64,000 bases of DNA from Coriobacteriia bacterium (GTDB lineage Bacteria > Actinomycetota > Coriobacteriia > Anaerosomatales > Anaerosomataceae), in contig JAFGVD010000015.1 in the NCBI GenBank assembly GCA_016938135.1, positions 1-64,000 on the forward strand, given 5' to 3'. Numbering within the stretch: the first letter of the stretch is position 1; the number at the start of each line of letters is the position of its first letter. Under the pieces are notes generated by a model. That model was not told the DNA's origin. It saw nothing but the letters and a program-made list of their open reading frames with translations, and ran no database searches. Shown here one piece after another: positions 37,440 to 63,116 of the stretch. Made by a program: the position numbers and the translations under genes.

Positions 37440-37930
37440 GGGGTGGGACTCGTCTCTTCGCCGGAGTCAGTTTCATCGAGTGATGTCACGGCGTTGACCA
37501 TCCATTGCCCCTCTTGGAGGAGGAGGTCGTAGCGCAGACGGTACTCGATGCCGGTCTCACTCGCCACCGTCTCACTCGTGTCGAGACTCTCATGGACGTA
37601 GTCCCAGAGTTCGAATGTCGTCACGCTTGCGGTCTCCGGCTCGGGAAATGTGACCTCACCGAACTCGATAGACTTGAGCTCAGCGATCATCCGCACGCGG
37701 CTCTCGCCAAGTGCCGCCATCTGATAGAACTCGGTTAATGCCTGGTCCTCGGTGGCGACAGTGTTGAGTAGATTCATGTCCTGCTGCGCATAGGCCTGGG
37801 CAAGCGCCGTGTTGTATGCGCGCACTACATCCCTCACCTGCAATGCGGCGTCAACCTCCTCGGCACCCGTGCATCCGCCTGCAAACAACGCGACAGCCAG
37901 GACCGCTATGAGAATCCCAAGCCGCCTCAC
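37436..37930 (-). CDS. Lipoprotein, possible NTF2-like fold
   Basis: LFAGGCTGAEE lipobox; VVRAYNTALAQAYAQQDMNLLNTVAT...EYRLRYDLLLQEGQWMVNAV. Confidence 0.7.
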   Translation of the reverse strand: MRRLGILIAVLAVALFAGGCTGAEEVDAALQVRDVVRAYNTALAQAYAQQDMNLLNTVATEDQALTEFYQMAALGESRVRMIAELKSIEFGEVTFPEPETASVTTFELWDYVHESLDTSETVASETGIEYRLRYDLLLQEGQWMVNAVTSLDETDSGEETSPTP

Positions 37931-38757
37931 TGGAAATACACCGCATGGAGCGAATCGGACAAAATCGACGTGCCGAATAGCGAGAACAGAGCCAAAGCGA
38001 CACAGACGATCAGCAGCAGCGCCGCTCGTTTGCCCTCCCATGCGTAGAAACGCCGCACGTGAAGATAGATGCCGAACGCCAACCAGGTGACCAGCGACCA
38101 TGTCTCCACCGGGTCCCAGCCCCAGAAGCGACCCCATGAGTAGTACGCCCATATCGAGCCTGTAAGCATGCCGATCCCCCAGAACGCGAACGCGAGCCCG
38201 CCGAACCGGTACGAGATATCGTCAAGGCTCTCCAAGCTCTGGAATCGACCCGTTGCCTCCAACTCAAGGTCTTTGCCGCGCAAGATCAGAGCGGCACTGG
38301 ATAGCGCGATGACCGCAGTGGCAAAAGCGAGGACATAGAAACAGACATGGATGACCAGCCATATACCGCTGAATGTTGGCGGCAGGTTGTGCACCTCGGC
38401 ACCCGTGTAGAGGCCAAGCGCCATCATCAGGAACACAACGGGGTAGACGATCATGCCCAACACCTGCAGACGATCTCGCCGGTAGACGATGAGAGCGAAC
38501 ATAACGGCGGTCACGAACGCATAAGCGGACAGCATCTCGTACTTGGTCACATACGGCCCATGGCCTGACCCTGCCCAACGCGCACCCAACGCCAGAGCGT
38601 GAACGCCGATCGCGAGCGGAACCACGTTACCGGCCCACCTGACAAGCCCTGGTCTACGCAGGAAGCGACCGCCGATCAACATCATGGCAGCCAGGGCATA
38701 CAGCACTATGGCCACGACATGCACGCGTGTCTCAGCCTGCAGAAGAAACGCGCTCAT
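37927..38757 (-). CDS. ccsB: Cytochrome c biogenesis protein CcsB/CcsA (System II)
   Basis: WGRFWGWDPVETWSLVTWLAFGIYLHVR heme-handling WWD-type domain. Confidence 0.92.
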   Translation of the reverse strand: MSAFLLQAETRVHVVAIVLYALAAMMLIGGRFLRRPGLVRWAGNVVPLAIGVHALALGARWAGSGHGPYVTKYEMLSAYAFVTAVMFALIVYRRDRLQVLGMIVYPVVFLMMALGLYTGAEVHNLPPTFSGIWLVIHVCFYVLAFATAVIALSSAALILRGKDLELEATGRFQSLESLDDISYRFGGLAFAFWGIGMLTGSIWAYYSWGRFWGWDPVETWSLVTWLAFGIYLHVRRFYAWEGKRAALLLIVCVALALFSLFGTSILSDSLHAVYFQ

Positions 38758-40070
38758 GAGCTGCCCTCTTCATCTGAACCGAACAATGCGTCCCTCTCCT
38801 GATCAACCGAACGGGCGAACCTGTAGGCGTTCCAGCGAGCCCATGTCTGTCCGTTTTCATCGGTGCGAAGCCGGACCTCTCGCGGTACTCCAACATAGAG
38901 TGCCGTCGCGCCGAGAAACACCAGGGCGAAACCGGCGAACAGGGGGATGACACTCCATTCACGGGCGAGAACGAACGTCGCCCAACGTCGCCTTCCGTCA
39001 AGTCGCACTGTAACATCATCAAGAGAGACCGTGTCGGTCGTCATAGTCGACTGAGCCACAACCTCGCCATCAAGCTCACGACGAAGCACGAACTCGGGCT
39101 CGTCGCTCATCGACTGAGTTCCCGGATCTTCCACACACTTCAAACGCAAGACACTCCCGTCTTGCAGCGGTATGTCCATGTAGGTGGGATTCCCGACACC
39201 TAGCGGTTGCGACAAATCGGCGCGCTGCATCAACTCCGTACCATCCGGAAAGGCCACAGTCAGGAAGTACGAGTAGCCGAACCTCTGGTCCTGGTATATC
39301 CTCACGCCCCTTACGACACGCGAGCCGTTAATGGAGACCGTCAGCTGCTCCTGTTGAGCTGAGTCGCCCAACAAGATGACAGTCTCCAGCTGACGTACGC
39401 TCCCGTCATCCCAGAACCGCGGCGTCACCGACGCCAACTCCAGAGGCTCTTCAAGACTTAGAGGACTTGCCAGTACTCCATAATCCTGCGCCACGACTTG
39501 GGTGGTCGCGTCAAGGCTTTCGCCTTCCACAAGAACGACCATGCTTCGCGCTGTGGTCAGGATGGTAAGCACTGCGAACGCAAGTGCGATGAGCATACCT
39601 AGATGGAGCAGTGACGCGCCCCATAGATTCCATGGGTTCTTCAGGAACCTCGATTCGTCGCCGATCCGACCCGCAGCCCAGTAACGAAGCGCGGCCATCG
39701 ACTCTTCAAGACCGGGTCGGTCACCGACAACATGCCAACCCGAAAGCCCGGACCACGTCCGCGGTCGAAACGTGCGGCGATAGTCTCGTCTCAACATATT
39801 AAGCGTCGCGAGACCCAGGGTCAGCCAGCACAGCGCCAGCAGGAACGCGAATCCCCAGGTAGAAACCACGTGATCAAGTCCGGCTGCCTTGAGTGCGTCC
39901 ACAAGGAAAGGAGCCTTGGCCTGTAGCGCATCAAGACCATCCGGACTGGTCACACGTTGCGGGACAAGCGCGGCCAGAAGTACGGCTATCCCTAGGCCGG
40001 AAATCAGCAGCAGAACCGTTCTACGAGATAGCATGACTCGCTTCAGTTGACGACCCAGCGTTCGTGGCAT
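38754..40070 (-). CDS. resB: Cytochrome c biogenesis protein ResB (System II)
   Basis: N-terminal TM cluster, GASLLHLGMLIALAFAVLT, large periplasmic domain with FGYSYFLTVAFPDG; overlaps ccsB by 4 bp. Confidence 0.9.
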   Translation of the reverse strand: MPRTLGRQLKRVMLSRRTVLLLISGLGIAVLLAALVPQRVTSPDGLDALQAKAPFLVDALKAAGLDHVVSTWGFAFLLALCWLTLGLATLNMLRRDYRRTFRPRTWSGLSGWHVVGDRPGLEESMAALRYWAAGRIGDESRFLKNPWNLWGASLLHLGMLIALAFAVLTILTTARSMVVLVEGESLDATTQVVAQDYGVLASPLSLEEPLELASVTPRFWDDGSVRQLETVILLGDSAQQEQLTVSINGSRVVRGVRIYQDQRFGYSYFLTVAFPDGTELMQRADLSQPLGVGNPTYMDIPLQDGSVLRLKCVEDPGTQSMSDEPEFVLRRELDGEVVAQSTMTTDTVSLDDVTVRLDGRRRWATFVLAREWSVIPLFAGFALVFLGATALYVGVPREVRLRTDENGQTWARWNAYRFARSVDQERDALFGSDEEGSS

Positions 40071-40089
40071 ACGAGTCACTGGCGCATCA

Positions 40090-43000
40090 TCACCAGCCTG
40101 TATCGGTCCCGTCGTACACAACGTGCGAGCCGCACCCGCTCGCAGTGGTGACGGTGCAGTTGTTCTTGGTCATGAACGTGTAGCTCACTGAATAATTGCT
40201 GACGTACACGGTGGTCTTGTCTCCCAGATAAGCGTATCTGCTGGGCATGGTGCCATTCGCATCAGCAATCAGGCGCCCGAGCTTGCTTCCGTGCGGCACG
40301 ATAGTGTGACAACGATAGCAGGCAGCAGATGCGTGCGCACCGGTCGACGCAGTGTGCGCTCTGTTATCTGAAAATCCATTGTGGCAGTTGTCACAGAGGA
40401 GGCCCGTCTGTGTACCGGCGGCGAGCCCGTTGATCGTGTATGGGGTACCTGTCGAAGTAAAAGGCCAATAACCCTTGAGCATGTGCGGCAAAGACGAACC
40501 GTGCGGCCCAACAGCAGCCGAATCCGTACTACGCGGTCCATGGCAATCAGAACAGTACATCGTCTGAGTCCCCACAGCCTTCCAACCGGTATCCATCCAG
40601 TCTGCGTTGAGCGCCTTCGTGGAGCCAAGAGGCGCAACCACGGGATGATACGAAGCATTGTTCGGGTTGAAGTCCAGCGCAACGTTAGTCCACAGGTTGG
40701 CGCCTGTCCCACCCCACGATGTGACATTCGTATTAGCACCCGAGTGGCACTTGAAGCAGATCTGGTACTCAGCGTACTTCGAGCTTGCGGTCGTCGTCTT
40801 GGTGTAGCCGGTGGGAGCTGTCCAGTTGGCACCCGGCGAGTACGTAGGCTCCTGACCCCATGCGCCCCAAAGCGGCGAACCGCTCGCGATAGTACTGGTA
40901 CCCGTGGTATGGATCGTCGAGCCTGAGACGCCATTTCCCGTGGCGTGCGCATCGTGGCAGTCCTCGCACTCGACGTGTTTGTTCGCGCTTATCTCCGCCT
41001 GTGTCTCGTCCGACTCATGGACGCCCGAGTACGTGCCGACTCCATGCTTCTTGATGGACCAGGGAGAAGTCGTGTTGGCGTACGACGAACCAAAGAGCAG
41101 CGAGACGCTCTGCGACCTCGCACTCATAGTCTTAACGCCGTAGCCGTCGCTCAGCGTAGAACCCGTGTGACAGGCGAAGCACAGGTTCTCCTCGGTGGGC
41201 GAACCGGTTGCCCCAAGTGCTGCCGCTATCCTGCTCTCGGCTGACGTGTGCGTCCCTATCTTGTAGGTGCCGGTCTGGAACCACGCGCTGGTCCCGGCGC
41301 TGTCGGTGTGACACTTAGTGCAGTTGGCCTGGAAGGCCGAGCCATCGTCATAGCCCACCTTGGCTACGCTGTTAACAGCGTAGTCGTGCGCCTTGCCTGC
41401 ATATGTGCTGCCGCTGATCACAGGAGTGGCCTCTGAGCCGCCGACCTTCTGCTGCGTGCTCTTGGTCTGCGCCACATCGTGACAACTCACACAGATACCG
41501 TACGGAGCCGACGACGAGTAATCGGTGCTCGCTGCCGTGCCGGTGTTGTCGTCGATGCTGGTACGCAGGTTAGTGCTCTTGTCAGTGAAGTAGTTGTGAT
41601 CGGTGTGGCAGCTCACGCAGGCGAGCTTATTGTCAGAAATCGGGTACGTGGCGGTCGCTCCGGGAGCCATGTCCGACCCACGCACATCATCCGTGTCCAT
41701 AGCATGATGATACGTGTCCGTGGATGAATCCATGACGCTATACGCTGAGTGGCACAGATAGCAGTCCATACCACCGGGAGAGACGCCACTGCCGGGATTG
41801 TGAACGTTGATGCCGCTGTCTGCGGTCATCGTACCGTGACACGTAAGACAAGATGCCGAGTCATCACGATAGTGCCCGCTCAGCTCCGGGACCTTGAGTC
41901 CTACGACCCCAGACCTGACTGTGCGGTCTATGCCCTCTATCTCTGCTCCCGCCGAGACAACCGCATACGCGCTACCATTCCAACCGTAGGCGTCTGTATT
42001 CCCCGACGAAGACCCGCACGTCGTGTGGCAGGTGAAGCAGAACTCGCGAACGCCCAACGCATCGGTCAGGTCGAGTTCCCCGTTCGAATCACCGACTGCG
42101 ATCGTGGTATCGGCGCTCGTCTGAGTGATGACCAGCAGCCCGTTGGGAGTGGCGGAACCATGGGGGTTATGGCAGTCGTAGCACGGAAGCGCCGACTCAG
42201 CTGGCAGCGTGCCTGTATCGCTCTCGATCTTGTGGCCAAAGCGAGTGCTCGTCGTCTGAGTGGCTCCCCCGCCCGCCGTCGACGGATAGTACTGCTTGAT
42301 GTTGTAGCCCGTCGTCGTTCCATCGTGGCAATCGAAACACAGTGTGAAGTCAGTGGTCGTGAAAGTGGAGACAAGGCCGTCGTAGTCGTTGTCAGCACGA
42401 TGCGAAACGTGACAGTAGAGGCAGTCCCCCTCCACGCGCGCCGGATCGGCTGCTGATGCCGGGATCGTCGCGTGCGGGTTGTTTGCGTCACTCAGGTACC
42501 CCGGGAACGTGCCCACCACGGGATAGCCTGTGGCGTCCCTGGTGGGAGACGTCACGTCGTACGTCTCCGTACCCGAGTACCAATCATTCGTGCCGTTGTG
42601 ACATGCTAGACACCAGTCGTTTCCGACGCTCGCCACGGCAACGCCGTTGACGGTCTGCGCAGGCAACATCGTTCGCGTGGCTGGATCGAGGTGTGGGGAG
42701 TGGCAATTAGTGCATACGTCAGTGAGGTCCCCATCAGTGGCCGCCTCTTCGACCGAATGCCCACTCGGCATGGCGGCATCGAAAGAGTTCTCACCAGACT
42801 CCACGTTCTTCTCGGCAAGGGTGCCGTCATGGCATGTCAGGCACACGGATGTCTGACCCGGCGTACTACCTGTCTGTCGCATCAAGATACCCGCGTCAGC
42901 GGCTTCGTGGACCGAATGGCACATCTTACAGAGCGCCGTCCCTGTCGTATACGTCCCGTGCGGCGATGGCGGCTCCCATGCTGCTGACACCGGACCCGCG

Positions 43001-45441
43001 ACTTCTGACTGAGCCGAGATGTTGCCCGCTGCATCGTACGCCTTCACTGCGTAGTAGTAGTTCTGGCCGGCGACGCCTGATTCATCGTCGAACGACAACG
43101 AGGTAGTGTTGCCGATAGGCGTGAACGGACCGGCAGGGTTAAGGGCACGCAGCACCGTGTAGCCCACAGGGTCGCCGCTTGAAGCGGCCCACGCGATGGT
43201 GGCGATCGTGGGATCTGCTACACCTGCGGTGAGGGTGCTTATGACGGGGATACTTGGCGGAGTGACATCAAACGAGCTATCCGCGCTATAGAACTCCATC
43301 GTCTGGACATCATTGCTGTTGAGGCCGTCAGAGACCGTCCCGGCCGCTACGCCGAGCGTATAGAGTACATCGGCCGTCTGCGCACTCGTTGTCAGCAGAA
43401 CCGTACGTGAATCCGCCTGCAGCACAGCGCTGGAGACGGTGAGCCCACCGGAGAGCGTGAAACCGCTGGCGTTCTCGAGCGTGACGCTCTCGCTGAAGAT
43501 CGCCTGAACCGTGGTCGAGTCCACGGGCACCAGCGACTGCAAGGTGGGCTTCACATTGTCCACAAGTAGAGAGCTAAGTGCCGAAAGCTCATTGCCGGCC
43601 GCATCACTGAAGAGGGCGGAGACGATGAAAGTGACTCCGTCCGCCTCGGGAACAGTGAACTCCGGGTCCCAAGTGGCAAACCCGGGGCTGGTGGCGGTAG
43701 CATCCGTCCAGACACTGGAGAAGACCCACTCGTCACCATCGAAATCCCAATAGGCATCGTCAGTCGAACGTTTGACCGACACCTTGACCGAGACTATGCC
43801 CGACAACGCATCGGCAGCAGTACCGGTGATCTGGTACTTGGAACCGGGACTCGCCGAGATGCTCGTTCCGGACGAGGGCTGGGTAAGAACGCAGCTCGTG
43901 GAATCAGGTGCCACGTTGTCCGTCACGACGCCTTCGCCCGACATCGTCGACGTCAGCGTGCTGAAGGTCGTCACGACGGCAGGGGCGTTCACACCGATCC
44001 CACCATATTCGATCTGCGAGCCTATACCTTCGCTGTGTTCGCATGAGGCCGCCACATCATAGGCAACCCACACGTCAACATGACCAGCATCCGGGACGAC
44101 GACACTGAGACCCGTGAATGCCGCGTTCGCTCCCGAACCATACGCCATGCTGCCAAGAAGCGTGTCCTCGGTCGCATCAAAGGTTCCGTTGCCATCATCC
44201 AGGTAGATCTTCACCAGTGAGACCGCTGCCGAGGTCAGGGTGTCGGGGCGGTGGACCGTTATCTTGTTGACTGTCACTGCGCCCTGTGAGGCCGCCAGCC
44301 TGATGTTGTCGATCAACACGCTGGTGGCCGGCGATTTCACGTACCTTACCGACGACGGGATATGATCCGCATTGCTCACCGTCAACCTAGGCGTCTTCAC
44401 TGCGAAAACGGTAGGCGAAGCGGGCATCGGCAGCCCGGATATCGTCTGGACGTTCGTGGTGGTGGTCGCCGTGACCTTGGCATCCATGGTGGCGCCATCT
44501 GTCGCACCGGAGGCAACGACATAGGTGACCAGGTACTGCTGCGACGTATCGGTGATCGCCTCGTTCACGGACACGGTCGCGTTGGCACCGGAGAACGTAG
44601 CCGCCGTGGCGTTCAGCTTGACATCGGTGCCTGCAGTCAGCGCCCCGTCGCCATTGACGTCTCTGTAGACATAGACACCGGACACATTGGCCTCGGGAGA
44701 GGTCTTGCTGTTATTCACTGTGAGCGTATTGATGACCGGCCCGGAAGTATCCCCTGCAGTCCTACGCAGTGAAAAGCGGTTGACCACGACCTCCTGCGAT
44801 GGCACTACATCGGCCGCCGTAGGCTGTCCGCCTGTATGCGCCGAGAAAGTGACCGTGTTAGGCGTCGTCGCCGTGTACTCCACGACGATCTCCATCTGGG
44901 TCACGCGGAGGCTTGCGGCATTGGTGAAGCTACCGATCACGATACCTTCAAGAGCCTGGACATCGGCCCAGCTCCAGCTGCCACCACCCGGACGTTCAGT
45001 GAGCGCTTGCTCGAAAGTCTGATATGCCGAAGAAACCGATGACGCCGATGCATAGGTCGTAGAACCGCTCAGGGCAAGACCCAGCTGGATGCTGGCGAAA
45101 GGCGTTCCAACACTCTTGTAGCCTCTTGCCACGACCCGCAGCGTCACCTTGCTGATAGTGCCGGTGGCCGAGGGGTCCGCCAGGCTTACACTTAGCGGGC
45201 TCGTTCCTGATGTGGTGACGTAGGTCGTGTCACCGTCGTTAGCGGAGATCGCCGTAGCGATCGTCCCCGTGTTCGCCGTCCATCCCGACGAACTCACAAC
45301 CGCATCCGGAGCGAGGCTCAGCGTGGCCGCTTGAGCCAGGGAGGTCGCAAAGGCCATGGCACCCGCAACCAGCACAACAAGCCCGACGCGTACCGCGCGG
45401 GCTAGCTTGTCTCCCTTGTGGATCCACCGACTCAAGCGCAT
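40090..45441 (-). CDS. Giant secreted multiheme c-type cytochrome (19 CxxCH) with Ig-like and FN3 domains
   Basis: Signal peptide; DNVKPTLQSLVPVDSTTVQAIFSESV Ig-like; PPSIPVISTLTAG...YYYAVKAYDAAGN FN3; 19 CxxCH motifs counted by eye (CKMCH ... CYRCH). Confidence 0.92.
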   Translation of the reverse strand: MRLSRWIHKGDKLARAVRVGLVVLVAGAMAFATSLAQAATLSLAPDAVVSSSGWTANTGTIATAISANDGDTTYVTTSGTSPLSVSLADPSATGTISKVTLRVVARGYKSVGTPFASIQLGLALSGSTTYASASSVSSAYQTFEQALTERPGGGSWSWADVQALEGIVIGSFTNAASLRVTQMEIVVEYTATTPNTVTFSAHTGGQPTAADVVPSQEVVVNRFSLRRTAGDTSGPVINTLTVNNSKTSPEANVSGVYVYRDVNGDGALTAGTDVKLNATAATFSGANATVSVNEAITDTSQQYLVTYVVASGATDGATMDAKVTATTTTNVQTISGLPMPASPTVFAVKTPRLTVSNADHIPSSVRYVKSPATSVLIDNIRLAASQGAVTVNKITVHRPDTLTSAAVSLVKIYLDDGNGTFDATEDTLLGSMAYGSGANAAFTGLSVVVPDAGHVDVWVAYDVAASCEHSEGIGSQIEYGGIGVNAPAVVTTFSTLTSTMSGEGVVTDNVAPDSTSCVLTQPSSGTSISASPGSKYQITGTAADALSGIVSVKVSVKRSTDDAYWDFDGDEWVFSSVWTDATATSPGFATWDPEFTVPEADGVTFIVSALFSDAAGNELSALSSLLVDNVKPTLQSLVPVDSTTVQAIFSESVTLENASGFTLSGGLTVSSAVLQADSRTVLLTTSAQTADVLYTLGVAAGTVSDGLNSNDVQTMEFYSADSSFDVTPPSIPVISTLTAGVADPTIATIAWAASSGDPVGYTVLRALNPAGPFTPIGNTTSLSFDDESGVAGQNYYYAVKAYDAAGNISAQSEVAGPVSAAWEPPSPHGTYTTGTALCKMCHSVHEAADAGILMRQTGSTPGQTSVCLTCHDGTLAEKNVESGENSFDAAMPSGHSVEEAATDGDLTDVCTNCHSPHLDPATRTMLPAQTVNGVAVASVGNDWCLACHNGTNDWYSGTETYDVTSPTRDATGYPVVGTFPGYLSDANNPHATIPASAADPARVEGDCLYCHVSHRADNDYDGLVSTFTTTDFTLCFDCHDGTTTGYNIKQYYPSTAGGGATQTTSTRFGHKIESDTGTLPAESALPCYDCHNPHGSATPNGLLVITQTSADTTIAVGDSNGELDLTDALGVREFCFTCHTTCGSSSGNTDAYGWNGSAYAVVSAGAEIEGIDRTVRSGVVGLKVPELSGHYRDDSASCLTCHGTMTADSGINVHNPGSGVSPGGMDCYLCHSAYSVMDSSTDTYHHAMDTDDVRGSDMAPGATATYPISDNKLACVSCHTDHNYFTDKSTNLRTSIDDNTGTAASTDYSSSAPYGICVSCHDVAQTKSTQQKVGGSEATPVISGSTYAGKAHDYAVNSVAKVGYDDGSAFQANCTKCHTDSAGTSAWFQTGTYKIGTHTSAESRIAAALGATGSPTEENLCFACHTGSTLSDGYGVKTMSARSQSVSLLFGSSYANTTSPWSIKKHGVGTYSGVHESDETQAEISANKHVECEDCHDAHATGNGVSGSTIHTTGTSTIASGSPLWGAWGQEPTYSPGANWTAPTGYTKTTTASSKYAEYQICFKCHSGANTNVTSWGGTGANLWTNVALDFNPNNASYHPVVAPLGSTKALNADWMDTGWKAVGTQTMYCSDCHGPRSTDSAAVGPHGSSLPHMLKGYWPFTSTGTPYTINGLAAGTQTGLLCDNCHNGFSDNRAHTASTGAHASAACYRCHTIVPHGSKLGRLIADANGTMPSRYAYLGDKTTVYVSNYSVSYTFMTKNNCTVTTASGCGSHVVYDGTDTGW

Positions 45442-45464
45442 ACCCCCATGCATGCTCTAATCAC

Positions 45465-45579: not shown

Positions 45580-46572
45580 CTACTCGGCAACAGGCAAGCG
45601 CACGTTGTAGACCACTATCTTGCCGGTGTCAGCATCTGTCACATATAGACGCTGATCGGCGTCGATCCAGCACGCGTCGCGGGGGCTTGAGAGCGCCGCA
45701 TCCGGGTCCGTCAAATCAGCAGTCCAGATGCGGCGAATGCCGTCGTCGGCCACCACAGAAACACGTTTGCCGAACGTCTCTATCACGAACTCCTCGGAGT
45801 CTATTCCCTGCAAGACTCCGCGTGGCAGCGAGTAGCGCTCAGAGAGGCTACGGACGAGTCTGCCGCTTTGCGCGTCCAACACCACCACGCGTCCCGCGTT
45901 CGAGTCCGCAACATGCAGCCCGTCATCCGCAAGGAACATGCCTCCGCAGTAAGTCAGCGCCGGCATCAGTTCCTGCCCGAGCGTTCGCAGGTACCGACCA
46001 TCATCTGCCGAGAACACCAGGATCGTATGGCTCGCCCCATCGGCGACGAAGAGCTCGCCATCGGCGAATGCGAGAGCCGTTGGCTGCAACGGGACAATCT
46101 CGGCGTCATCTCCCAAGATCATCAGAAGCTCCGCGTTCTTGCGCGTGCTCAACACGAGTACTCGCAACGAAGCGCTGTCAATGACCGCGATACGGTGATC
46201 ATCCAAGACGGCGACGTCTGACGGGTAGGCGCTGCTGGCACCCTCGGCAACCGGGATCTGGATGTCATCCAGCCGTCGGGCATCCAGCGTGAACACCGCG
46301 ACCTTGCCGGCGTCTGACTCGGCTATGTAGAGGTTCTTGCCGTCCGAGTCGATGCCCATGGGGCCCTGCAATGCCGTATCCTCGGGCGCCGGAAATCGAC
46401 CGGCGTACATGATCTCTTCGGTGGAGCCTTCAGGAAACCCGGGGAATTCCACCCCCCCGCCTGCAGGCTGCAGCACCCAATAGAGGAGGGCTGCAGTGCC
46501 AAGAGCGAGCACAAGCGCGAGCGCGACAAGGAATGCCCGGTGCTTGGGAGAGTCGCTCATATTCAGGCGCAT
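45580..46572 (-). CDS. NHL-repeat / six-bladed beta-propeller membrane-anchored protein
   Basis: N-terminal TM, then repeats GPMGIDSDGKNLYIAES.AGKVAVF, LADDGLHVADSNAGRVVVLDAQSG. Confidence 0.85.
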   Translation of the reverse strand: MRLNMSDSPKHRAFLVALALVLALGTAALLYWVLQPAGGGVEFPGFPEGSTEEIMYAGRFPAPEDTALQGPMGIDSDGKNLYIAESDAGKVAVFTLDARRLDDIQIPVAEGASSAYPSDVAVLDDHRIAVIDSASLRVLVLSTRKNAELLMILGDDAEIVPLQPTALAFADGELFVADGASHTILVFSADDGRYLRTLGQELMPALTYCGGMFLADDGLHVADSNAGRVVVLDAQSGRLVRSLSERYSLPRGVLQGIDSEEFVIETFGKRVSVVADDGIRRIWTADLTDPDAALSSPRDACWIDADQRLYVTDADTGKIVVYNVRLPVAE

Positions 46573-46659
46573 GCTGGGCTCCTCGGCAGGTCTAGGCACG
46601 ATTAGTTGATAGTATCGCAAAACGCCGCCGGAGCTCAGGCATGGCGTCCTGGCATCAAC

Positions 46660-46731: not shown

Positions 46732-47703
46732 ATGCCCTTCAACGTGAGAAAACCGAAGTTCCGCCTGGTTATCTCCATAGCATTGCTCATAGGGTTGCTG
46801 CTCGTTGTGACGGCCATCGTCGGATCGTCACCCACGGCATGTGGCGCGTGCCACACTATGTCTCCTTACACGGAGGCACTACAGGAGTCCGCCCATTCGG
46901 ACATAGCCTGCTACGAATGCCACCTTCCTGCGGGCGCATGGGACTGGCCGGCGTTCAAGACGCATGAAGTCCTTGGGATGTACCCGGCTTCCATCATCAA
47001 GGCAAGGCTCGACGGCGCAGCAACGATGACCTCCCGGACCGCATGTCTGAAGTGCCACTCCGAGGTGCTCGAGGACGTCATCGAAGCCGGGGGTATCCGC
47101 ATCCAGCATGACTCATGCGCGCCTGAGGGCTCGTGCGATAGCTGTCACAGCACCGTAGCGCATGGCGAGAGCACGCGGTGGATCTTGGAACCCGCCATGG
47201 AGGACTGCATCGGCTGCCACCGGGACGAGAAAGCGCCAACCACATGCGACCTGTGCCACGCGGGCAAGACCACCGCAGAGCGCCTCTCAAGGGGCTCATG
47301 GGCGATCACTCACGGTCCGGAGTGGGAGACCACGCACGGCATGGGGGATCTACGTACGTGCGACGCCTGCCACGATGACAAGAAGTGTGCCTCCTGTCAC
47401 GACATCAAGCTGCCCCACCCGATGGACTTCGGGTCCACCCACCCTGCAGTCGCACTAGAGAACCCCGAGTCGTGCGAGACCTGTCACGACAGCGTTGCTT
47501 TGTGCGATGCATGTCACGGCATATCGATGCCTCACCCCGAGGGCTTCTTGTCAGAGCACTCCAAGATTGCCACCGGCACCGACGATGCGGTCTGCATCAG
47601 ATGCCACAAAGAAGCAGACTGCGTACGTTGCCACGTGGCACACACCCATCCGGGATCGACCGACGGACTGATCGGCGCCGGCCTCCCTGAGACGGGGAGG
47701 TGA
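46732..47703 (+). CDS. Membrane-anchored NapC/NrfH-like multiheme cytochrome (12 CxxCH)
   Basis: N-terminal TM; CGACHTMSPYTEALQESAHSDIACYECH; 12 CxxCH counted. Confidence 0.9.
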   Translation: MPFNVRKPKFRLVISIALLIGLLLVVTAIVGSSPTACGACHTMSPYTEALQESAHSDIACYECHLPAGAWDWPAFKTHEVLGMYPASIIKARLDGAATMTSRTACLKCHSEVLEDVIEAGGIRIQHDSCAPEGSCDSCHSTVAHGESTRWILEPAMEDCIGCHRDEKAPTTCDLCHAGKTTAERLSRGSWAITHGPEWETTHGMGDLRTCDACHDDKKCASCHDIKLPHPMDFGSTHPAVALENPESCETCHDSVALCDACHGISMPHPEGFLSEHSKIATGTDDAVCIRCHKEADCVRCHVAHTHPGSTDGLIGAGLPETGR

Positions 47704-47707
47704 CGGG

Positions 47708-48802
47708 GTGCAGGAGTACATCGACCAGATAGCCGACGTCATCGGCAACCCGACATCCAACCTCGTGGTCGCAGCACTGCTCCTGGCGGCTGTCACGCTC
47801 ATCGTGCTGATCCTCATCCTGGTGGCGCTGATCTTCCTCATGCCATCGCGGCACCACGACGAGGACGATGAGGGCGACCAGGACGATGAGGACATTCCCG
47901 AGAAGCCAACGCCTGCTCCTAAGCGAGAGGCACGCAAGCCTCTTCCCCGGAAACTGCAGATCTGGCTGTTTGTCGGCATCACGGCGGCGACAATCGCCAC
48001 TGCGTACGGCGTGACCTCAAGCGATGACTATTGCGCGAACACCTGCCACGTGATGGCGCCTTCGGTGGCCTCCTGGAACGAGGGGGCGCACAGCGGCATC
48101 TCTTGCGTCCGATGCCATGAAGGCAGGCTGGTGGTCTCGGCAGCATCCGGAAGCATGTCGCGGCTGCGCCAGCTTGCCGCACAGCTTGAGGGGAAAGAGC
48201 CCGTCTCGGCAGTCGTGTCATCGCGCACGTGCCTGAGCTGCCACGCAGCGCAGCTAGAGGGCTCGGTGGAGACGTCATCCGGGATCATAGTGAGCCACGC
48301 CGAACCGCTTGAAGCGGGCATGAGCTGCGATACATGCCACACCGCGGTGGCACATGAGCGCGAGGTCGCATCGCAAGCCACCATCATGACGCAGTGCCTG
48401 ACATGCCACGAAGGCACGAAGGCTTCCGCCGAGTGCTCCACGTGCCATACGGGAGATCCGGGAGCCACTCCTGTGTTCGAGCGCATCTACACGAGCACTG
48501 AGCTCCCGCAGCCCACCTGCGGCGGTTGCCATTCCGAGGAGAGCTGCGATGCGTGCCACGGCATACGGATGCCGCATTCGCAGGCATTCATCGAGGGAGA
48601 GCATGCCAAAGATGCCGGCTTCTACCGCAAAGAGGTGTGCTGGAACTGCCACCTGAAGACCGACTGCGGCGCATGCCACGGGGACTTCGACAACTCGCAC
48701 CCCGGGGACTTCTTCCAGACGCACAAGACGCTCTCACGCGAGTCCACGTGCAACACATGCCATCGCAACCATGAAGGTCCGTTCTGCGACAGGTGCCACT
48801 AG
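47708..48802 (+). CDS. Membrane-anchored NapC-like multiheme cytochrome (11 CxxCH + 1 CX3CH)
   Basis: GTG start; two hydrophobic segments; CANTCHVMAPSVASWNEGAHSGISCVRCH; 11 CxxCH plus one CX3CH. Confidence 0.9.
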   Translation: MQEYIDQIADVIGNPTSNLVVAALLLAAVTLIVLILILVALIFLMPSRHHDEDDEGDQDDEDIPEKPTPAPKREARKPLPRKLQIWLFVGITAATIATAYGVTSSDDYCANTCHVMAPSVASWNEGAHSGISCVRCHEGRLVVSAASGSMSRLRQLAAQLEGKEPVSAVVSSRTCLSCHAAQLEGSVETSSGIIVSHAEPLEAGMSCDTCHTAVAHEREVASQATIMTQCLTCHEGTKASAECSTCHTGDPGATPVFERIYTSTELPQPTCGGCHSEESCDACHGIRMPHSQAFIEGEHAKDAGFYRKEVCWNCHLKTDCGACHGDFDNSHPGDFFQTHKTLSRESTCNTCHRNHEGPFCDRCH

Positions 48803-48945: not shown

Positions 48946-49851
48946 CTAGAAGTCGAGACCAACACCTGTGGATGCGTCAGCACGGTGGCACTTCAAGCAC
49001 GCGCCGTCCTCGGAAGGATCGGCCGCACCCGTTGCGCTACCCACTGAAGCGAAGTTGACCGCGCTCAACAGGAAGCGATTGCCGCTCGTGTAGTGCGGGA
49101 AGTTGTCGGCAGCAGAGGCGCCGTCGGTCTCGCCCGCATCGTGACAGCTACGGCAATACGTGCTCGGTGCCCACGCAACAGTCGAATTGGCCGCGATTGT
49201 CGCCTTACTGTTCGCATAGTTGGCTGTGGCGTCACCCATGATGTGCATGTTTGCAGTAGCGTCGTCATCGTAGTCATTGGCCCAGTACGTGTGGCACTGC
49301 GAGCAGAACGCCGTGACGACACCATTGCGATCAGTACCGGTTGTGAAGTCGTAGGTCGTCTCAGCTGCAGTCACAGTACCGGACTGACCTCCGATAGCGG
49401 ACTTCAGGATCTTGGTGTTGATGTCACCTGCCGCGGTCGTTGAGATCGCACCTGCACCGTGAACGGTGTGGCAGTCGACGCACGTAGAACCGGAGCCTGC
49501 ATAGTGGTTGTTCTCGTAGTCGGTGGTGTAGTTTGCAGCGACGCTGTCGTACACCTTGACACTGGACACGGAGTTGGTGATATGGCAATACTCGCACGCG
49601 TTTGCAACCGTACCGCGCAGCAGTACTTCACCGCCGGCAGTCGCACGGTGGACCGCATGGCAGACAGCGCACTTGACGGTAGTCGTGCCATAGCCTGCAT
49701 GCGGGGTCTGAACAGTGGCGTTGGCACCAGTAGTGCCCCAAGCGGAGTACTGGTCGCCGTCAACGCCTGCGACGGCAAGTGCTGTGCCGGCGAACATCAT
49801 GGTGAACGCGCAAGCAAGTACAAGTACGATGGCTAGCTTCTTACTAGTCAT
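48946..49851 (-). CDS. Secreted hexaheme c-type cytochrome, OmcS-like layout (candidate nanowire subunit)
   Basis: Signal peptide MTSKKLAIVLVLACAFTMMFAGTALA; six CxxCH (CAVCH, CEYCH, CVDCH, CSQCH, CRSCH, CLKCH) plus exactly six other His; RBS GAAGGGAG before ATG. Confidence 0.9.
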   Translation of the reverse strand: MTSKKLAIVLVLACAFTMMFAGTALAVAGVDGDQYSAWGTTGANATVQTPHAGYGTTTVKCAVCHAVHRATAGGEVLLRGTVANACEYCHITNSVSSVKVYDSVAANYTTDYENNHYAGSGSTCVDCHTVHGAGAISTTAAGDINTKILKSAIGGQSGTVTAAETTYDFTTGTDRNGVVTAFCSQCHTYWANDYDDDATANMHIMGDATANYANSKATIAANSTVAWAPSTYCRSCHDAGETDGASAADNFPHYTSGNRFLLSAVNFASVGSATGAADPSEDGACLKCHRADASTGVGLDF

Positions 49852-49950
49852 TGAATCTCCCTTCGAATGAATCCCCATCATAATTTGATTTCACCTCCCC
49901 CGTTGAAGAATCAGATACTCGCAAAGCGAGGAATCTCCCCATTCACCCCA

Positions 49951-50040: not shown

Positions 50041-51252
50041 TCAGAAATTGTCATCCGGGTGTTCGCCGACCTCCATATTCGAGAGCTCGGACGACTTTCG
50101 ACTCTTGGATACCTTCATCATGACCGCCACGAAAAGCAGCAATACGAGCGGAACCGCGCAGACCCACACTGGTCCCACGAGCGCCCTGCGCACCGTAGGG
50201 CCAAGCTCTGTAGATCCGCTGTCTGGTATGCGAACGATCTGAACCCGAGCGTTGGCGGTGTCAGCCACAACGAACCAATCGCGCTCAGTGTCATAGGCGA
50301 TGCCTGTTGGGTATGCAAAGAGACCGTCGCTTTCGCCGAAATCTCCGTAACGGTCGATTATCGAACCGTCGGTCTTATCGACAACGACCATGTTGAAACC
50401 GAACGGATCCACCAAAACGAGGCGTTCATTTGCATCCATACACATACCGGCGGGCAGCTGAAGCCCTGTGCCGCTGGTCTCCTCGGAGGTCTCCTCACCC
50501 ATGGCCTGATTGCCTCCGCCGGTGATACCTGCATCTGTCGTCCAGAGAAGATCTCCTTCCGAGCTGAAGGCCTTGACCCTGGCGTTAAGAGTGTCTGCAA
50601 CATAGATGACACCGTCGGCGTCAACGACGATTCCTTGCGGCAAATCCAGCTGCTCCAGCGAACTGCCTCTCCCACCCCAGCTCCCCACGGATTCGCCCTC
50701 GACAGTGAACACCGATACACCGGCCGGCCCCGTGACATACACACGGTCTCCCGCCACCTCGCAATCAAGCGGCTGACTGACCTCCCATGATCGAAGCAGT
50801 TCACCTTGCCGACTCAAGACAAGCAGGCGATCAGCGCCGTTGGCGCACACGTAGACCTCGCCGTCCTGACTCACAGAGATGCCCTTGGGCACCACCCAAG
50901 GGATATCCGCGACCACGCCAGAGAGCTCAATTCGGCGTCGAAGCGTGCCGTCGGGCCCAAACTCGAAGATCGAATTCAGCTGGGTGTCACTCACCCAGAT
51001 CGCACCGCCGGAAGATATCTCAACGTGATCGGGCGCGATAAACTGCTCTTCCGCAGACGGGCCGAATCCATAGATCGAACGAACCCACTCCAGACCCTCC
51101 GGCAGACGAACCTCATCAGGACTCCCCACTGGCTCCAGAAGAGTAGCGATGAAGTAGCCCAGCCCACCAAGCAGCATGAGCAATACCAGCAGTATCGCGA
51201 TGAGCCCAGCCCGCAGGCCCATACGATTGCCGCCTGCGCTATGACTACTCAT
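50041..51252 (-). CDS. NHL-repeat beta-propeller, membrane-anchored
   Basis: TM ILLVLLMLLGGLGYFIATLL; blades FIAPDHVEISSGGAIWVSDTQLNSIFEFGPDG, LPQGIVVDADGVIYVADTLNARVKAFSSEG. Confidence 0.88.
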   Translation of the reverse strand: MSSHSAGGNRMGLRAGLIAILLVLLMLLGGLGYFIATLLEPVGSPDEVRLPEGLEWVRSIYGFGPSAEEQFIAPDHVEISSGGAIWVSDTQLNSIFEFGPDGTLRRRIELSGVVADIPWVVPKGISVSQDGEVYVCANGADRLLVLSRQGELLRSWEVSQPLDCEVAGDRVYVTGPAGVSVFTVEGESVGSWGGRGSSLEQLDLPQGIVVDADGVIYVADTLNARVKAFSSEGDLLWTTDAGITGGGNQAMGEETSEETSGTGLQLPAGMCMDANERLVLVDPFGFNMVVVDKTDGSIIDRYGDFGESDGLFAYPTGIAYDTERDWFVVADTANARVQIVRIPDSGSTELGPTVRRALVGPVWVCAVPLVLLLFVAVMMKVSKSRKSSELSNMEVGEHPDDNF

Positions 51253-52021
51253 CGCTACCGCCCCTCTCAAGGGCCGATAGCCCCTCCAGTGCCTGTTGGA
51301 AATCGGGAATCATGCTCAGCGCCTTCTCATAGTCAGCGCGGGCAGCGGCTGTATCTCCAACGGATGACTCAAGATCGCCGCGCCAAGCGAGCACATCTGC
51401 CATCGTGGGGAGCTCTTCTAGGGCACCGTCGAGCGCAGCGATGGCCTCATCAACCCGATCAAGGCCCTCGAGAATCTGCGCCCTCAGCAACCACGCGTCG
51501 ACGATCTCTTCGGAAGAGAACGGCGAGGTGATCCCCATTGCAGCTTGCTTGTCGATGGTTGCCTGTTTCTCTGCTTGCGCTTCAGTCAGCGCACGCTCCG
51601 CAACACCAAGCGCCCCCTCGCTGTCACCGGTCGCATCAAGAAGACGAGCCTCCTCGATCGAGACCACCGCGGAGGCCGTGCTTTCCGCGGCTCGATACGC
51701 ATTCATAACAGACGTCGCCTTCGAGTAACGTTCGACCTCGATGAGCGCGCGCATGTACTGGGCCACTACTGTCGGGTCATTCGGAGTCGCCTTGAAAGAC
51801 CTGTCGAGGGTGGCTATCTCCTTCTCGGCAAGAGTACGTGGCGCCTGTCCGGTCAGGACGCCTGTATAGACGACGTAGATGACAGCGGTCAGCACGAAGA
51901 CCAACATCACAAGCACGGCCACCAACAATCGCCGCACCCAGGGGTCTGCCGCAGGCGCCTTTCTGCTACGACGGGAAGTCTCTTGCTCCATGGATGTAGA
52001 ACCTCGTTCCAATGTCGACAT
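51245..52021 (-). CDS. Membrane-anchored TPR protein
   Basis: TM VAVLVMLVFVLTAVIYVVY; TPR-like VDEAIAALDGALEELPTMADVLAWRGDLESSVGDTAAARADYEKAL. Confidence 0.8.
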   Translation of the reverse strand: MSTLERGSTSMEQETSRRSRKAPAADPWVRRLLVAVLVMLVFVLTAVIYVVYTGVLTGQAPRTLAEKEIATLDRSFKATPNDPTVVAQYMRALIEVERYSKATSVMNAYRAAESTASAVVSIEEARLLDATGDSEGALGVAERALTEAQAEKQATIDKQAAMGITSPFSSEEIVDAWLLRAQILEGLDRVDEAIAALDGALEELPTMADVLAWRGDLESSVGDTAAARADYEKALSMIPDFQQALEGLSALERGGSDE

Positions 52022-52145: not shown

Positions 52146-53624
52146 TTAGAAGTCGATGCCTACCTTGTCGTGGCACTGCAGACACTGGCCGTCGAACGGA
52201 TAGCTGTAGTTGCGCAACATGAAGTTCTGACGTGTCCCATGAGGATCGTGACACGTAGACGTACATGTTAGCGGCTTCTGCGCGGCAACGTCATAGTGCT
52301 CGGGCCGAACGGGATGGTTGTTCCGATAAACGGTGGCGCTCGCCTCGTCGTAGTCCGCCGCGGCATGGCACTGCAAGCAGACCTCGGGGTTGGCCTTCAC
52401 GAGTATGGGTGCATAGTCCGAACCGTGTGGCGTATGGCAGCGGATGCACAGGATCCCGTCGTGATCGGATGCATCATACGAGGTCTGGATAGCCTGGGCG
52501 TGACACTGATAGCACATGTCGTTCCCCTCGGCTGCGAGCAAACCGGGATAGTCCGCACCGTGAGGATCGTGGCAGTCACCACAGTTCAGATCGGCGGTAC
52601 CCACCGGGTGGTGACTCGACTTCAAGAAGTCGTCTTGGATGTCCCCGTGGCAGATATAGCATACGTCGGGCTGCTCTTTGATGAGCAGCGGACGATAGTC
52701 CGAGCCGTGCGGCTCATGACATCCGGTGCAGTTGTCGTAGAGGAAGGGCTGGTGCTGCACGGACTTGAGACTGAGCGGCGCCACGCTGGGGTGACAGGTG
52801 AAACAAAGGTCGCGCTGGTTGTCGACCAAGATCCCCTCGTAGCGTGAAGCGTGCGGGTCGTGGCAGTTGGTGCAGTAGCGCCCTTCAACCGGCGGGTGCA
52901 CCTGCTCGCGCGCGAGCTCCGGACCCATCCGATGGCAGGTGATGCACAGGTCTTTCTCGGTGATTTTAAGAAGCGCCTTATTGTCCGACGCGTGCGGGCT
53001 GTGGCAGTTGGTGCAGTACCCACCCACGAACGGAGCATGAGTGTACTCATACGAGCGCATCGGGCCCATGTCGCCATGGCAGATCCAGCACAGCTCGTCT
53101 TTGGAGGTGGTGAAATCCGAGTTGATGCCTTTGACCTGCTCCTCGGTGATGCTCTTGATATCGCCGCCGGCGTCCTCGGCCGTCTGACCCTCTGCCGAAT
53201 AGAACGCGTCGACGATCATCTTGAGCGGAAGCCACTCGACGAGCGTCTTGGTGCGTTCCCATGTGAGCGAAGCGCTCTCGTATACGGTCGTCGTCTGTAG
53301 CTCGCCGTGCGGCGTGTGACAGGTGGTGCAGCCGCGCTGCTCGAACGGCAGGTGGACTGAAGACATCGAGAAGGATGGAATGAGATCGGAATGGCACTGC
53401 AGGCACTCGAGGTTCTCGGTCACGACCTTGATTTCATCGGGACCCTTACTGATCCAGGTCTCAACGATGGTGGTGACCCCAAGTAGAAGGAGGAGCAGTA
53501 TCAGGACGGCGGCGAACGCAGCCCTACCACGCTTAGGGCCACCATCTATGTCCAGTCCCTCCGGGGAAGCGAGTACGCCTTCCTCGAGGATCTCTGGGTC
53601 GCCCAATGAGCCTCCCTCAACCAT
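52146..53624 (-). CDS. Membrane-anchored multiheme cytochrome (14 CxxCH + 1 CX3CH; doubled-CxxCH repeats)
   Basis: TM AFAAVLILLLLLLGVTTIVETW; repeating C..CH...(15-30)...C..CH.PHGSDY units; CTSTCHDPHG is CX3CH. Confidence 0.9.
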   Translation of the reverse strand: MVEGGSLGDPEILEEGVLASPEGLDIDGGPKRGRAAFAAVLILLLLLLGVTTIVETWISKGPDEIKVVTENLECLQCHSDLIPSFSMSSVHLPFEQRGCTTCHTPHGELQTTTVYESASLTWERTKTLVEWLPLKMIVDAFYSAEGQTAEDAGGDIKSITEEQVKGINSDFTTSKDELCWICHGDMGPMRSYEYTHAPFVGGYCTNCHSPHASDNKALLKITEKDLCITCHRMGPELAREQVHPPVEGRYCTNCHDPHASRYEGILVDNQRDLCFTCHPSVAPLSLKSVQHQPFLYDNCTGCHEPHGSDYRPLLIKEQPDVCYICHGDIQDDFLKSSHHPVGTADLNCGDCHDPHGADYPGLLAAEGNDMCYQCHAQAIQTSYDASDHDGILCIRCHTPHGSDYAPILVKANPEVCLQCHAAADYDEASATVYRNNHPVRPEHYDVAAQKPLTCTSTCHDPHGTRQNFMLRNYSYPFDGQCLQCHDKVGIDF

Positions 53625-53728
53625 GCGTGAAGACCGGCGCACAAAGACAGTGCGCCCAGTCAGCAGTCTAACATGCCCCCGATGCCTGTTGAATACTTAA
53701 CGGTACTTCGACGTCGACCACGCATCCC

Positions 53729-54898
53729 CTAGTTGAGCAACCTCACCATCTGCACTCGGTTGTTCTCCTTGTCGGCGACGACAACGAAGTTGCGGTACAC
53801 CTCTACGTCGTTGGAGAAGTTGAACTGACCCGGGTCGACGCCTCGCTCGCCATACATCGCCACCAGCTCACCGTCCGCAGAGATGCGTGTGATGCCGAAG
53901 CGGAATGCATCTGTAACCAGCACGGAACCGTCAGACGCTACCGCCAGACCGCGCGGAAGCTCGATCCCTGTGGTTGAAGCCGCGGCATCAGTCCCGATCG
54001 TTGCAGTGGTCGCGCTAGTTTCAGCGGTTCCGGAGCTCTCGGCGGTCCCGCTCGTCTCGGCAGAGACGAATGACTTGCCGAAGTTCCAAAGCGGCTCTCC
54101 GTCGGGCGTGAACGCGGTCACGCGCGCATGGTTGGAGTCCGAGACATACACCGTGCCGTCCTCGCCAACAGCAAGTCCGTTAGGGTGGTCCAGGTCGCCT
54201 GGTTCAATCCCTGGCTTGCCCCACTGCGTGATGAGCTCGCCTTCCAGGGTGAAGACGAAGATCTGGTACTGGTCGGTGGCGTAGATGCGGTCCTGGTAGA
54301 CAGCCACGTCCGTCACGGCGATCCCGAGACCGTCTTGCCCGGAAGAGCCACGACCAACCACCTGATCCGGCTCCGGGAAACGGCGCAACGGCTTGCCGTC
54401 GGCGTCGAACACCTCGATGGAGTCGTTGCGGAAGCTCGCGACGTAGACGTTGCCCTCATCGTCGGTGTCGATACCCACGGGGAAGTTCAGACTCCCGGGC
54501 TCATAGGTGTTCTGTGCGCCGGCAAGCGGCTTGCCCACTCCAAAGCTGCCGAACTCGAAAAGGAAACGCCCGGAGGAGTCAAAGACGCAGACGCGGTTGT
54601 TCTCGCTGTCGGTGACGTAGACCCTGCCCTCGCTACCGACGGCAACGCCCATGGGACGACCGAACAAGGGGTTCTCCCCTTCGCCGGGACCAAACACCTG
54701 CCACACCGGCTGAACGCCTTGCGTAGGCTCCAGGTCCACCAGGGAGTCCGGCTTGTCCAGCAACACAAGCAGGTAGAGGATCAGCCCCACGAGCGCGATG
54801 GCAAGCATCACCGCCAAAGCGATGAACGCCTGGCGTGGCGTCAACATGAAACGCTTGCGAGGGGCCTTGACGGGGTCGACCGCTGCTGTAGGCATCAT
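53729..54898 (-). CDS. NHL-repeat beta-propeller, membrane-anchored
   Basis: FGRPMGVAVGSEGRVYVTDSENNRVCVFDSSGRFLFEFG; LDHPNGLAVGEDGTVYVSDSNHARVTAF. Confidence 0.9.
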   Translation of the reverse strand: MMPTAAVDPVKAPRKRFMLTPRQAFIALAVMLAIALVGLILYLLVLLDKPDSLVDLEPTQGVQPVWQVFGPGEGENPLFGRPMGVAVGSEGRVYVTDSENNRVCVFDSSGRFLFEFGSFGVGKPLAGAQNTYEPGSLNFPVGIDTDDEGNVYVASFRNDSIEVFDADGKPLRRFPEPDQVVGRGSSGQDGLGIAVTDVAVYQDRIYATDQYQIFVFTLEGELITQWGKPGIEPGDLDHPNGLAVGEDGTVYVSDSNHARVTAFTPDGEPLWNFGKSFVSAETSGTAESSGTAETSATTATIGTDAAASTTGIELPRGLAVASDGSVLVTDAFRFGITRISADGELVAMYGERGVDPGQFNFSNDVEVYRNFVVVADKENNRVQMVRLLN

Positions 54899-55533
54899 TC
54901 GGCTCCAAGAGCAGTGAGGGCGTCACGCGCTTCAAGAAGATCAGGCGCGTAGCGAAGGGCCTCTTCGTAACTTGCTATAGCATCGTCAGTGCGACCGAGC
55001 TTCTCGTAGCAAAGACCGGCCAGATACTGGAGGTCGGCGAGTTCCGGACGGGCCTCCGCAACAGGCTCCACGGCGACCAGCGCGGACTTGTACTGGCCCT
55101 TCTCGATGTAGTACTCACCCAGGGCTTTGGCCGCAAGCGCGTGATCCGGCGCTATCTCAAGCACTTCCCAGAAGGTCTGCTCGGCGAGCTTCTGCTCACC
55201 CGTCTGCATGTAGATGACCGCCTTGTTGTACAGCGCGGCGGTGTTGCCGGGGTCCTCCACCAGCACCAGGTCGTACTGCTCGACGGCCTTGTCGTACTCC
55301 TCGTTCTGTTGATAGGCGAAACCGAGCGAGAGGCGATCGTCGGTGTTGTCCGGATCGGCCGAGACCTTCTGCTCCCAGTCCTCGACGGCATAGGTCTCAG
55401 GGGTCACCGGGCCTTCATCAACGATGAGACCTCGAAGCATCCATCCGCCAAGACCCACAACAGCGAGAAGCAAGATGAGCACAAGCAGCGCGAGCCACGC
55501 GGGAACGAGCTGATCCTCATGATCCGAGGTCAT
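54895..55533 (-). CDS. Membrane-anchored TPR protein
   Basis: TM WLALLVLILLLAVVGLGGWML; YDKAVEQYDLVLVEDPGNTAALYNKAVIYMQTG repeats. Confidence 0.88.
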   Translation of the reverse strand: MTSDHEDQLVPAWLALLVLILLLAVVGLGGWMLRGLIVDEGPVTPETYAVEDWEQKVSADPDNTDDRLSLGFAYQQNEEYDKAVEQYDLVLVEDPGNTAALYNKAVIYMQTGEQKLAEQTFWEVLEIAPDHALAAKALGEYYIEKGQYKSALVAVEPVAEARPELADLQYLAGLCYEKLGRTDDAIASYEEALRYAPDLLEARDALTALGAE

Positions 55534-56171
55534 CGCTCCCCGCCTTGAGCCAGGTAGAACGAGAGTATCTGCAGATCCGTGGACATACAGACCTGCCGCA
55601 CGGCCACGTCATCAGGGACCTGGAGACGCACGGGTGCAAGGTTGAGGATCGCTTTGATGCCTGCACCCACCACGCGGTCCACCAGCGCCTGGGTCTCAGC
55701 GGCAGGCGTGGCCATGATCACGATCTCCACGCCCTCCTCGGCAAGTCCCGCGTCAAGTTCGTCTACCGACCTGATCGTCACGCCGTCAGCATCCGTCCCG
55801 ATCTTATCGGGACTCGCGTCGAACACCGCCACGATGTCAAACCCTCTGTCCGAGAAACCGGTGTAGCTCTTAAGGGCGCCGCCAAGGCGTCCGTAGCCCA
55901 CGATGGCAGCGCGGCGAAGCTCGGATACGCCAAGCGACTTGGAGACGTGCGCGATAAGCGCCTCGACGTCGTAGCCGATGCCACGCGTTCCAAGCTCACC
56001 GAGATATGACAGATCCTTGCGCACCTGCGCGGCGTTGGTTCCCACCATCTCGGCGATCTCCACCGAGCTGATGACCGGCTTGCGATCTTGCTGCGCCTGA
56101 AGCAGGCAGCGCAGATAGACGGGCAGCCTTTGGATCGTTGTCTCAGGTATTTGCGTGCGTTCCATCATCAC
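55530..56171 (-). CDS. rex: Redox-sensing transcriptional repressor Rex
   Basis: RKDLSYLGELGTRGIGYDVEALIAHVSKSLGV, AAIVGYGRLGGALKSYTGF, NLAPVRLQVPDDVAVRQVCMSTDLQILSFYLAQ. Confidence 0.95.
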   Translation of the reverse strand: MMMERTQIPETTIQRLPVYLRCLLQAQQDRKPVISSVEIAEMVGTNAAQVRKDLSYLGELGTRGIGYDVEALIAHVSKSLGVSELRRAAIVGYGRLGGALKSYTGFSDRGFDIVAVFDASPDKIGTDADGVTIRSVDELDAGLAEEGVEIVIMATPAAETQALVDRVVGAGIKAILNLAPVRLQVPDDVAVRQVCMSTDLQILSFYLAQGGER

Positions 56172-58331: not shown

Positions 58332-58339
58332 ATCTCCTC

Positions 58340-60831: not shown

Positions 60832-60856
60832 CGCGTGGGGCCTTCCGATAGCGGGT

Positions 60857-62254: not shown

Positions 62255-62342
62255 GAGTCCCCCACCCTTCATACGCACGCTGTGCGTGACGTGTCCAAAT
62301 CCATTCTGCCCTATCGCTCGCTTCAGACAAACCGCGCGGGCC

Positions 62343-62939: not shown

Positions 62940-63116
62940 CCCGACACCTCCTTGATGACGCTCGGCACACCGATTACAGGCAACGATACGTTGATCACGC
63001 GTGCTCTCCACTGAACCCGGCCAATACTAGCACGCGCCCTTTCGAGTGGCCGAGGGACAGCTCAGGTCGAGTATACTGTGCTCGGTGCTACCGGACCCTG
63101 AACAGGACACGTGGTC

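Follow-up and report, generated by a model that had tools for sequence, protein, structure and literature searches.

A secreted hexaheme c-type cytochrome encoded in a Coriobacteriia genome, here called HEX, is, by profile comparison, a distant relative of OmcS, the nanowire subunit of Geobacter. Its gene belongs to a module that recurs across relatives and that includes NapC/NrfH-like multiheme cytochromes, NHL-repeat proteins and membrane-anchored TPR proteins. The favoured reading (probability about 0.65) is that HEX serves as an extracellular conductor of the OmcS/OmcE superfamily within a module by which monoderm Coriobacteriia export (or import) electrons, a reading that does not take polymerisation as certain. 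The host is an oxygen-avoiding actinobacterium of the Anaerosomatales/OPB41 lineage, with a genome of 2.13 Mb and a conserved gene set for electron export. The whole stretch of DNA analysed, 64,000 nucleotides, is referred to as the window, and its features are collected in Table 1.

AAGGGAG lies ahead of the ATG start codon of the HEX gene, and an alternative in-frame ATG at 49881, upstream of this start, is no better supported. The N-terminus consists of KK, a hydrophobic stretch and ALA, in the manner of a Sec-type signal peptide; the HEX sequence shows neither a lipobox nor a transmembrane segment nor an anchor at the C-terminus. The first-pass annotation had described a secreted protein of about 300 residues with a signal peptide, in which six CxxCH motifs are matched by exactly six further histidines, and the sequence bears this out. 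The non-motif histidines are PH51, CHAVH68, NNH116, CHTVH131, MH203 and FPH253 (25, 42, 90, 105, 177 and 227 in mature numbering); five of these positions had been given correctly, and the sixth, His116, had been misnumbered as NNH106. Shuffling the residues of HEX yields a mean of 0.02 CXXCH per sequence, compared with the six observed. Conservation is close to complete: when 30 relatives belonging to the order are aligned, His203 is present in 29 and the other 11 histidines in every sequence, and the only histidine below invariance among 39 independently fetched relatives is His116. His68, which completes the first-motif CxxCHxxH, is found in every one of the 39. With twelve conserved histidines, two for each of its six hemes, HEX matches the requirement of bis-His ligation at every heme and has the form of a secreted c-type multiheme cytochrome with a distal histidine for each heme.

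Homology to OmcS becomes apparent with broad profiles. A search of the PDB with the single HEX sequence did not find OmcS, and a 30-sequence profile placed it at E=0.011; neither was retained as evidence. A wider profile of 53 members, which includes seven-heme relatives, ranks OmcS (6EF8) first among all PDB sequences at E=7.7e-8, with periplasmic NrfB at E=3.4. Soluble periplasmic cytochromes, which the first-pass annotation had named as the closest homologues to be expected if its proposal were wrong, did not emerge as such. The same profile compared directly with OmcE gives no significant match (E=0.41). Against OmcS alone, the HEX profile scores 49 and the highest control 46. This margin is thin, and an intermediate family is therefore important to the argument.

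Such a family was reached through OmcS itself. When the verified OmcS sequence was searched against 61 genomes of the order, the genome of HEX was negative, and one other genome contained a weak full-length match (E=4.5e-7). Of 397 Actinomycetota genomes searched with this OmcS-matching protein, 11 proved to encode a hexaheme family, here called the bridge family, of which no mention was found in the literature accessible to the analysis. Its profile finds OmcS as the best PDB match, near full length, at 6.3e-14, and OmcE as the second at 1.1e-6; against OmcS alone it scores 121, with controls at or below 71. The family retains His2, His16, His110, His147 and His335 of OmcS, together with an RHP histidine that is equated with OmcS His257, the two lying a few columns apart in the multiple alignment. 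At some loci of the family (L110, L115-L137), the genes occur as tandem copies.

HEX and the bridge family were compared by hhalign with signal peptides removed and OmcS left out. They align across 251 columns with a score of 124. In 200 controls, the inter-motif columns of the bridge family were permuted while heme motifs and their spacing were kept; these gave a mean of 32.5 and a maximum of 47.6, and none of the 200 reached 124. Among comparison families, NapC-like proteins score 43-45, MtrA-like proteins score 75 against HEX, and a repeat of the HEX-bridge comparison with other alignments gave a probability of 98.9 and an E of 1.2e-17. HEX is, on these comparisons, homologous to OmcS beyond the heme motifs. 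The resemblance to OmcS that had at first been proposed is upheld both by the PDB ranking and by the full-length match to an OmcS-like family. The bridge family (L110, L115-L123) shares with HEX this whole-length homology and its TPR, NHL and NapC-like neighbours, but its members are longer (370-550 aa), keep the motif-5 CxxCHxxH, carry an RHRHP motif and are only about 25% identical to HEX. It offers a route to further distant relatives of OmcS beyond the reach of single-sequence searches.

To describe the order of heme ligands, an isolated histidine is denoted h, a CxxCHxxH motif M+ and a CXXCH motif M. In its minimal form the bridge-family layout is then (h M+ M) x3, and that of HEX is h M+ M, h M+ M, h M ... 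h M. Motif 5 of HEX reads CRSCHDAG, and this region contains just one further conserved histidine, FPH253. Five of the six inferred OmcS distal ligands align with HEX, among them His16, which aligns with HEX His68 via the bridge family, so that the first-motif CxxCHxxH is common to both. The complete ligand set, a feature specific to OmcS itself, is not found in HEX, as the motif-5 CxxCHxxH (His335) is absent. The motif order that had been likened to that of OmcS therefore agrees with it, with one exception: at motif 5 the CxxCHxxH histidine is missing and the FPH histidine is used instead. The ligand that OmcS supplies to heme 5 across the subunit boundary is presumably His16, the last residue of the motif-1 CxxCHxxH, and its equivalent in HEX would by homology be His68. 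In the OmcS structure, 11 of the 12 axial ligands are provided by the subunit's own chain and one, that of heme 5, by its neighbour (PMC6584659).

HEX can be set beside several known multiheme cytochromes. Like OmcS of Geobacter sulfurreducens (PDB 6EF8/6NEF), it is a secreted hexaheme protein with the same motif order and CxxCHxxH first. It differs in its mature length of 275 residues, compared with 407, which corresponds to some 46 residues for each heme (275 aa/6) as against 68. Its host is a monoderm with no outer membrane or porin conduit, and HEX is known from sequence, whereas OmcS is known as a polymer. In OmcE of Geobacter (PDB 7TFS), the stretches matched by the bridge-family profile are CxxCHxxH...CxxCH pairs of the kind seen in HEX, but OmcE is a tetraheme protein that has no motif 5. 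In Geoalkalibacter, an OmcE homologue shares its locus with genes for two NHL proteins, an MtoA homologue and a quinol-linked cytochrome (PMC12016550). OmcZ is, like the OmcS/OmcE-type wires, a filament-forming multiheme cytochrome; unlike HEX it is an octaheme protein with a different layout, and all its ligands are intramolecular (PMC9473688). Assignment of HEX to the OmcZ type, with eight hemes and a long motif-1 loop, is ruled out by its six standard CXXCH motifs. The MtrA-like protein of the window opens with a single M ahead of its h M+ M units, whereas HEX begins with CxxCHxxH, and this layout excludes an MtrA/DmsE/NrfB-type assignment.

Structure prediction adds little in either direction. 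AlphaFold (AF2) models of the HEX monomer have a mean pLDDT of 57 (39 sequences) and 67.5 (53 sequences), and in the better model the regions around hemes 4-6 reach 70-94, with the first heme module below 50. Foldseek returned no PDB match for either model, the confidence of both being too low for structure matching. OmcS and OmcE have a common heme geometry but not a common overall fold (PMC9473688), and the blank Foldseek result therefore neither supports nor refutes the proposed relationship.

On the minus strand, the genes are ordered Rex, TPR, NHL, MtrA-like (14 hemes), TPR, NHL and HEX. NapC1 and NapC2 lie beside HEX on the plus strand, followed by an NHL gene, the 19-heme giant cytochrome, ResB and ResC.

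Table 1. Features of the HEX region, with positions numbered along the window
Feature	Coordinates	Strand	Evidence and remarks
ResC/CcsA-like cytochrome c assembly protein	37927..38757	-	PF01578 2e-37
ResB-like cytochrome c maturation protein	38754..40121	-	PF05140 6.8e-13
Giant multiheme cytochrome, 1787 aa, 19 CXXCH	40090..45453	-	Pfam
NHL-repeat beta-propeller NHL1	45580..46620	-	PF01436 1.2e-14
NapC1, NapC/NrfH-like membrane multiheme cytochrome, 12 CXXCH	46732..47703	+	TIGR03153 1.4e-13, below cut-off
NapC2, NapC/NrfH-like membrane multiheme cytochrome, 11 CXXCH	47708..48802	+	PF03264 and TIGR03153, below cut-offs; conserved pair with NapC1
HEX, secreted hexaheme c-type cytochrome, OmcS superfamily	48946..49851	-	301 aa (read from 49851 to 48946); signal peptide; 6 CXXCH and 6 distal His; OmcS homology
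NHL-repeat beta-propeller NHL2	50041..51270	-	PF01436 1.8e-17; TM segments at both ends; directly upstream of HEX; conserved neighbour
Membrane-anchored TPR protein TPR1	51245..52021	-	Pfam TPR; 26-bp overlap with NHL2; conserved neighbour
MtrA/DmsE-type multiheme cytochrome, 14 CXXCH, N-terminal TM	52146..53642	-	PF09699 3e-75; TIGR03508 7e-54, below family cut-off
NHL-repeat beta-propeller NHL3	53729..54898	-	PF01436 4.9e-27
Membrane-anchored TPR protein TPR2	54895..55533	-	Pfam TPR; weak CcmH/CycH TPR match
Rex-type redox-sensing repressor	55530..56171	-	PF06971 and PF02629

The core of this arrangement, TPR-NHL-HEX with NapC1-NapC2, recurs across relatives. Among 29 HEX genes with enough flanking sequence, NHL and TPR genes lie directly upstream in 20 and a NapC-like gene lies within 4.5 kb in 21; nine have no TPR/NHL neighbours. 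Within the source genome, NHL matches at E<=1e-5 are confined to the HEX window and to the end of a contig that carries another HEX-type gene. TPR and NHL genes also neighbour the OmcS-like genes of the bridge family, with NapC-like cytochromes at four of the five loci examined. The companion genes of the osc operon reportedly serve folding, secretion and morphology. A GEMM riboswitch precedes omcS, and none was found in the window. In relatives, the N-terminal heme region of the giant cytochrome matches the HEX and OmcS-like profiles (scores of 91 and 107), and the giant may therefore interact with HEX. A cluster of similar described content is known from Parvivirga hydrogeniphila, an Fe(III)-dependent member of the same order, and comprises Rex, ResBC/cytochrome biogenesis, MtrA-like and quinol-oxidising multiheme genes (PMC9686372); the likeness is one of gene content and implies no gene-by-gene correspondence. 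The description of that cluster makes no mention of OmcS, nanowires, NHL or TPR (PMC9686372).

Together, these components would allow the following route. Electrons from quinol would enter via the NapC-like membrane cytochromes with 11-12 hemes, which would carry them across the cell-wall zone and hand them to HEX, the hemes having been attached by ResB/ResC. The membrane-anchored TPR and NHL proteins may act as chaperones or assembly partners. HEX would then extend the path outside the cell, possibly as an end-to-end polymer in which His68 ligates heme 5 of the neighbouring subunit. Polymerisation of HEX into filaments is plausible, with chances that are roughly even. A more ambitious version is also conceivable, if somewhat short of an even chance: monoderm actinobacteria might build OmcS-type nanowires from HEX, with TPR, NHL and paired NapC-like multiheme wires replacing the outer-membrane conduit of Geobacter, the ligand of the third heme pair rewired, and the giant cytochrome acting as a base or tip adaptor. 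To our knowledge, cytochrome wires solved by cryo-EM come only from diderm bacteria and archaea. With a conserved module of the OmcS superfamily in Coriobacteriia, Gram-positive monoderms would join this class; such a module would also suggest a porin-free crossing of a thick cell wall by electrons, and would supply a defined candidate gene set for cultivated or enriched relatives such as Parvivirga, Anaerosoma and EMTCatB1. Caution is advised by work on Geobacter, where the role of cytochrome filaments as physiological conduits is disputed (PMC11077965, PMC13194489), and by the authors of PMC12977616, in whose view sequence models cannot recognise OmcS wires in other genera.

Other explanations are available for the same observations. 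HEX could be a soluble, non-polymerising member of the OmcS superfamily that shuttles electrons through the cell-wall zone, from the NapC-like cytochromes to another terminal reductase (the giant multiheme protein, for example), with His68 serving as ligand to a heme in the same chain or in a partner protein. This is unlikely; in its favour, OmcT, OscC and OmcJ, OmcS paralogs of the same layout, have no demonstrated filaments (PMC12977616), the smaller number of residues per heme leaves less peptide for subunit interfaces, and the adjoining giant cytochrome has a HEX-related N-terminal region. It accounts less readily for the invariance of His68, and it sits poorly with a PDB ranking in which OmcS is the best relative and periplasmic NrfB falls far outside significance. 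Alternatively, HEX might be an extracellular terminal reductase or electron-uptake protein that works at a mineral or electrode without filaments, an improbable reading. Its secreted, unanchored form would suit such a role, as would the presence of the module in EMTCatB1, an actinobacterium reported from a biocathode (PMC7943316). The homology to OmcS and the ligand order tell against it as they tell for filaments, and, with a conserved second histidine at hand for each heme, HEX shows no sign of a heme of the catalytic (His/vacant) type.

It might also be argued that six ordered CXXCH motifs would give any unrelated multiheme cytochrome some likeness to OmcS, as in paired-CXXCH proteins. The weakness of the single-sequence similarity and the score of the MtrA-like control profile are in keeping with this. 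Already disfavoured, it is now very improbable: motif-preserving permutations never exceeded 48 where 124 was observed, the NapC-like controls stayed low as well, and OmcS heads the PDB ranking of the broad HEX profile. Mere motif coincidence is rejected by the permutation control. The reading of HEX as an OmcS/OmcE-superfamily extracellular conductor remains the preferred one.

Of 200 genomes in the class, 73 contain a match to HEX at E<=1e-3, and all strong matches fall inside the order. Named relatives are Coriobacteriia, several of them labelled Anaerosomatales, and the best 75 HEX loci in the genome collection are actinobacterial wherever titled. The supposition that the DNA came from an actinobacterium-like genome was sound, the close relatives being Coriobacteriia/Anaerosomatales MAGs. 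One carrier of the module is the EMTCatB1 actinobacterium (L049), reportedly the dominant organism on an electromethanogenic biocathode (PMC7943316).

Several variants of HEX and of its surroundings were also observed. The source genome encodes two divergent paralogs (L002, 829-2172; L003, 1495-2619); each adjoins NapC-like and NHL-like genes, and in each CX4CH replaces CXXCH at two of the six heme motifs. Seven-heme relatives occur at L055, L058, L061, L063, L066 and L074, several of them beside NHL, TPR or NapC-like genes. At L056, L070, L082 and L054, the HEX domain is C-terminal in longer open frames of 657-878 aa, which suggests fused or anchored forms. Molybdenum-cofactor riboswitches (Rfam RF01055) lie near OmcS-like and NHL genes at L139 (14383-14502) and L140 (9380-9524). 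Directly beyond Rex, positions 56196-63011 of the window hold surface polysaccharide genes, encoding a Wzy-type ligase with TPR, a sugar transferase, a GT4 protein and a phosphomannomutase; such genes adjoin the module in some relatives too.
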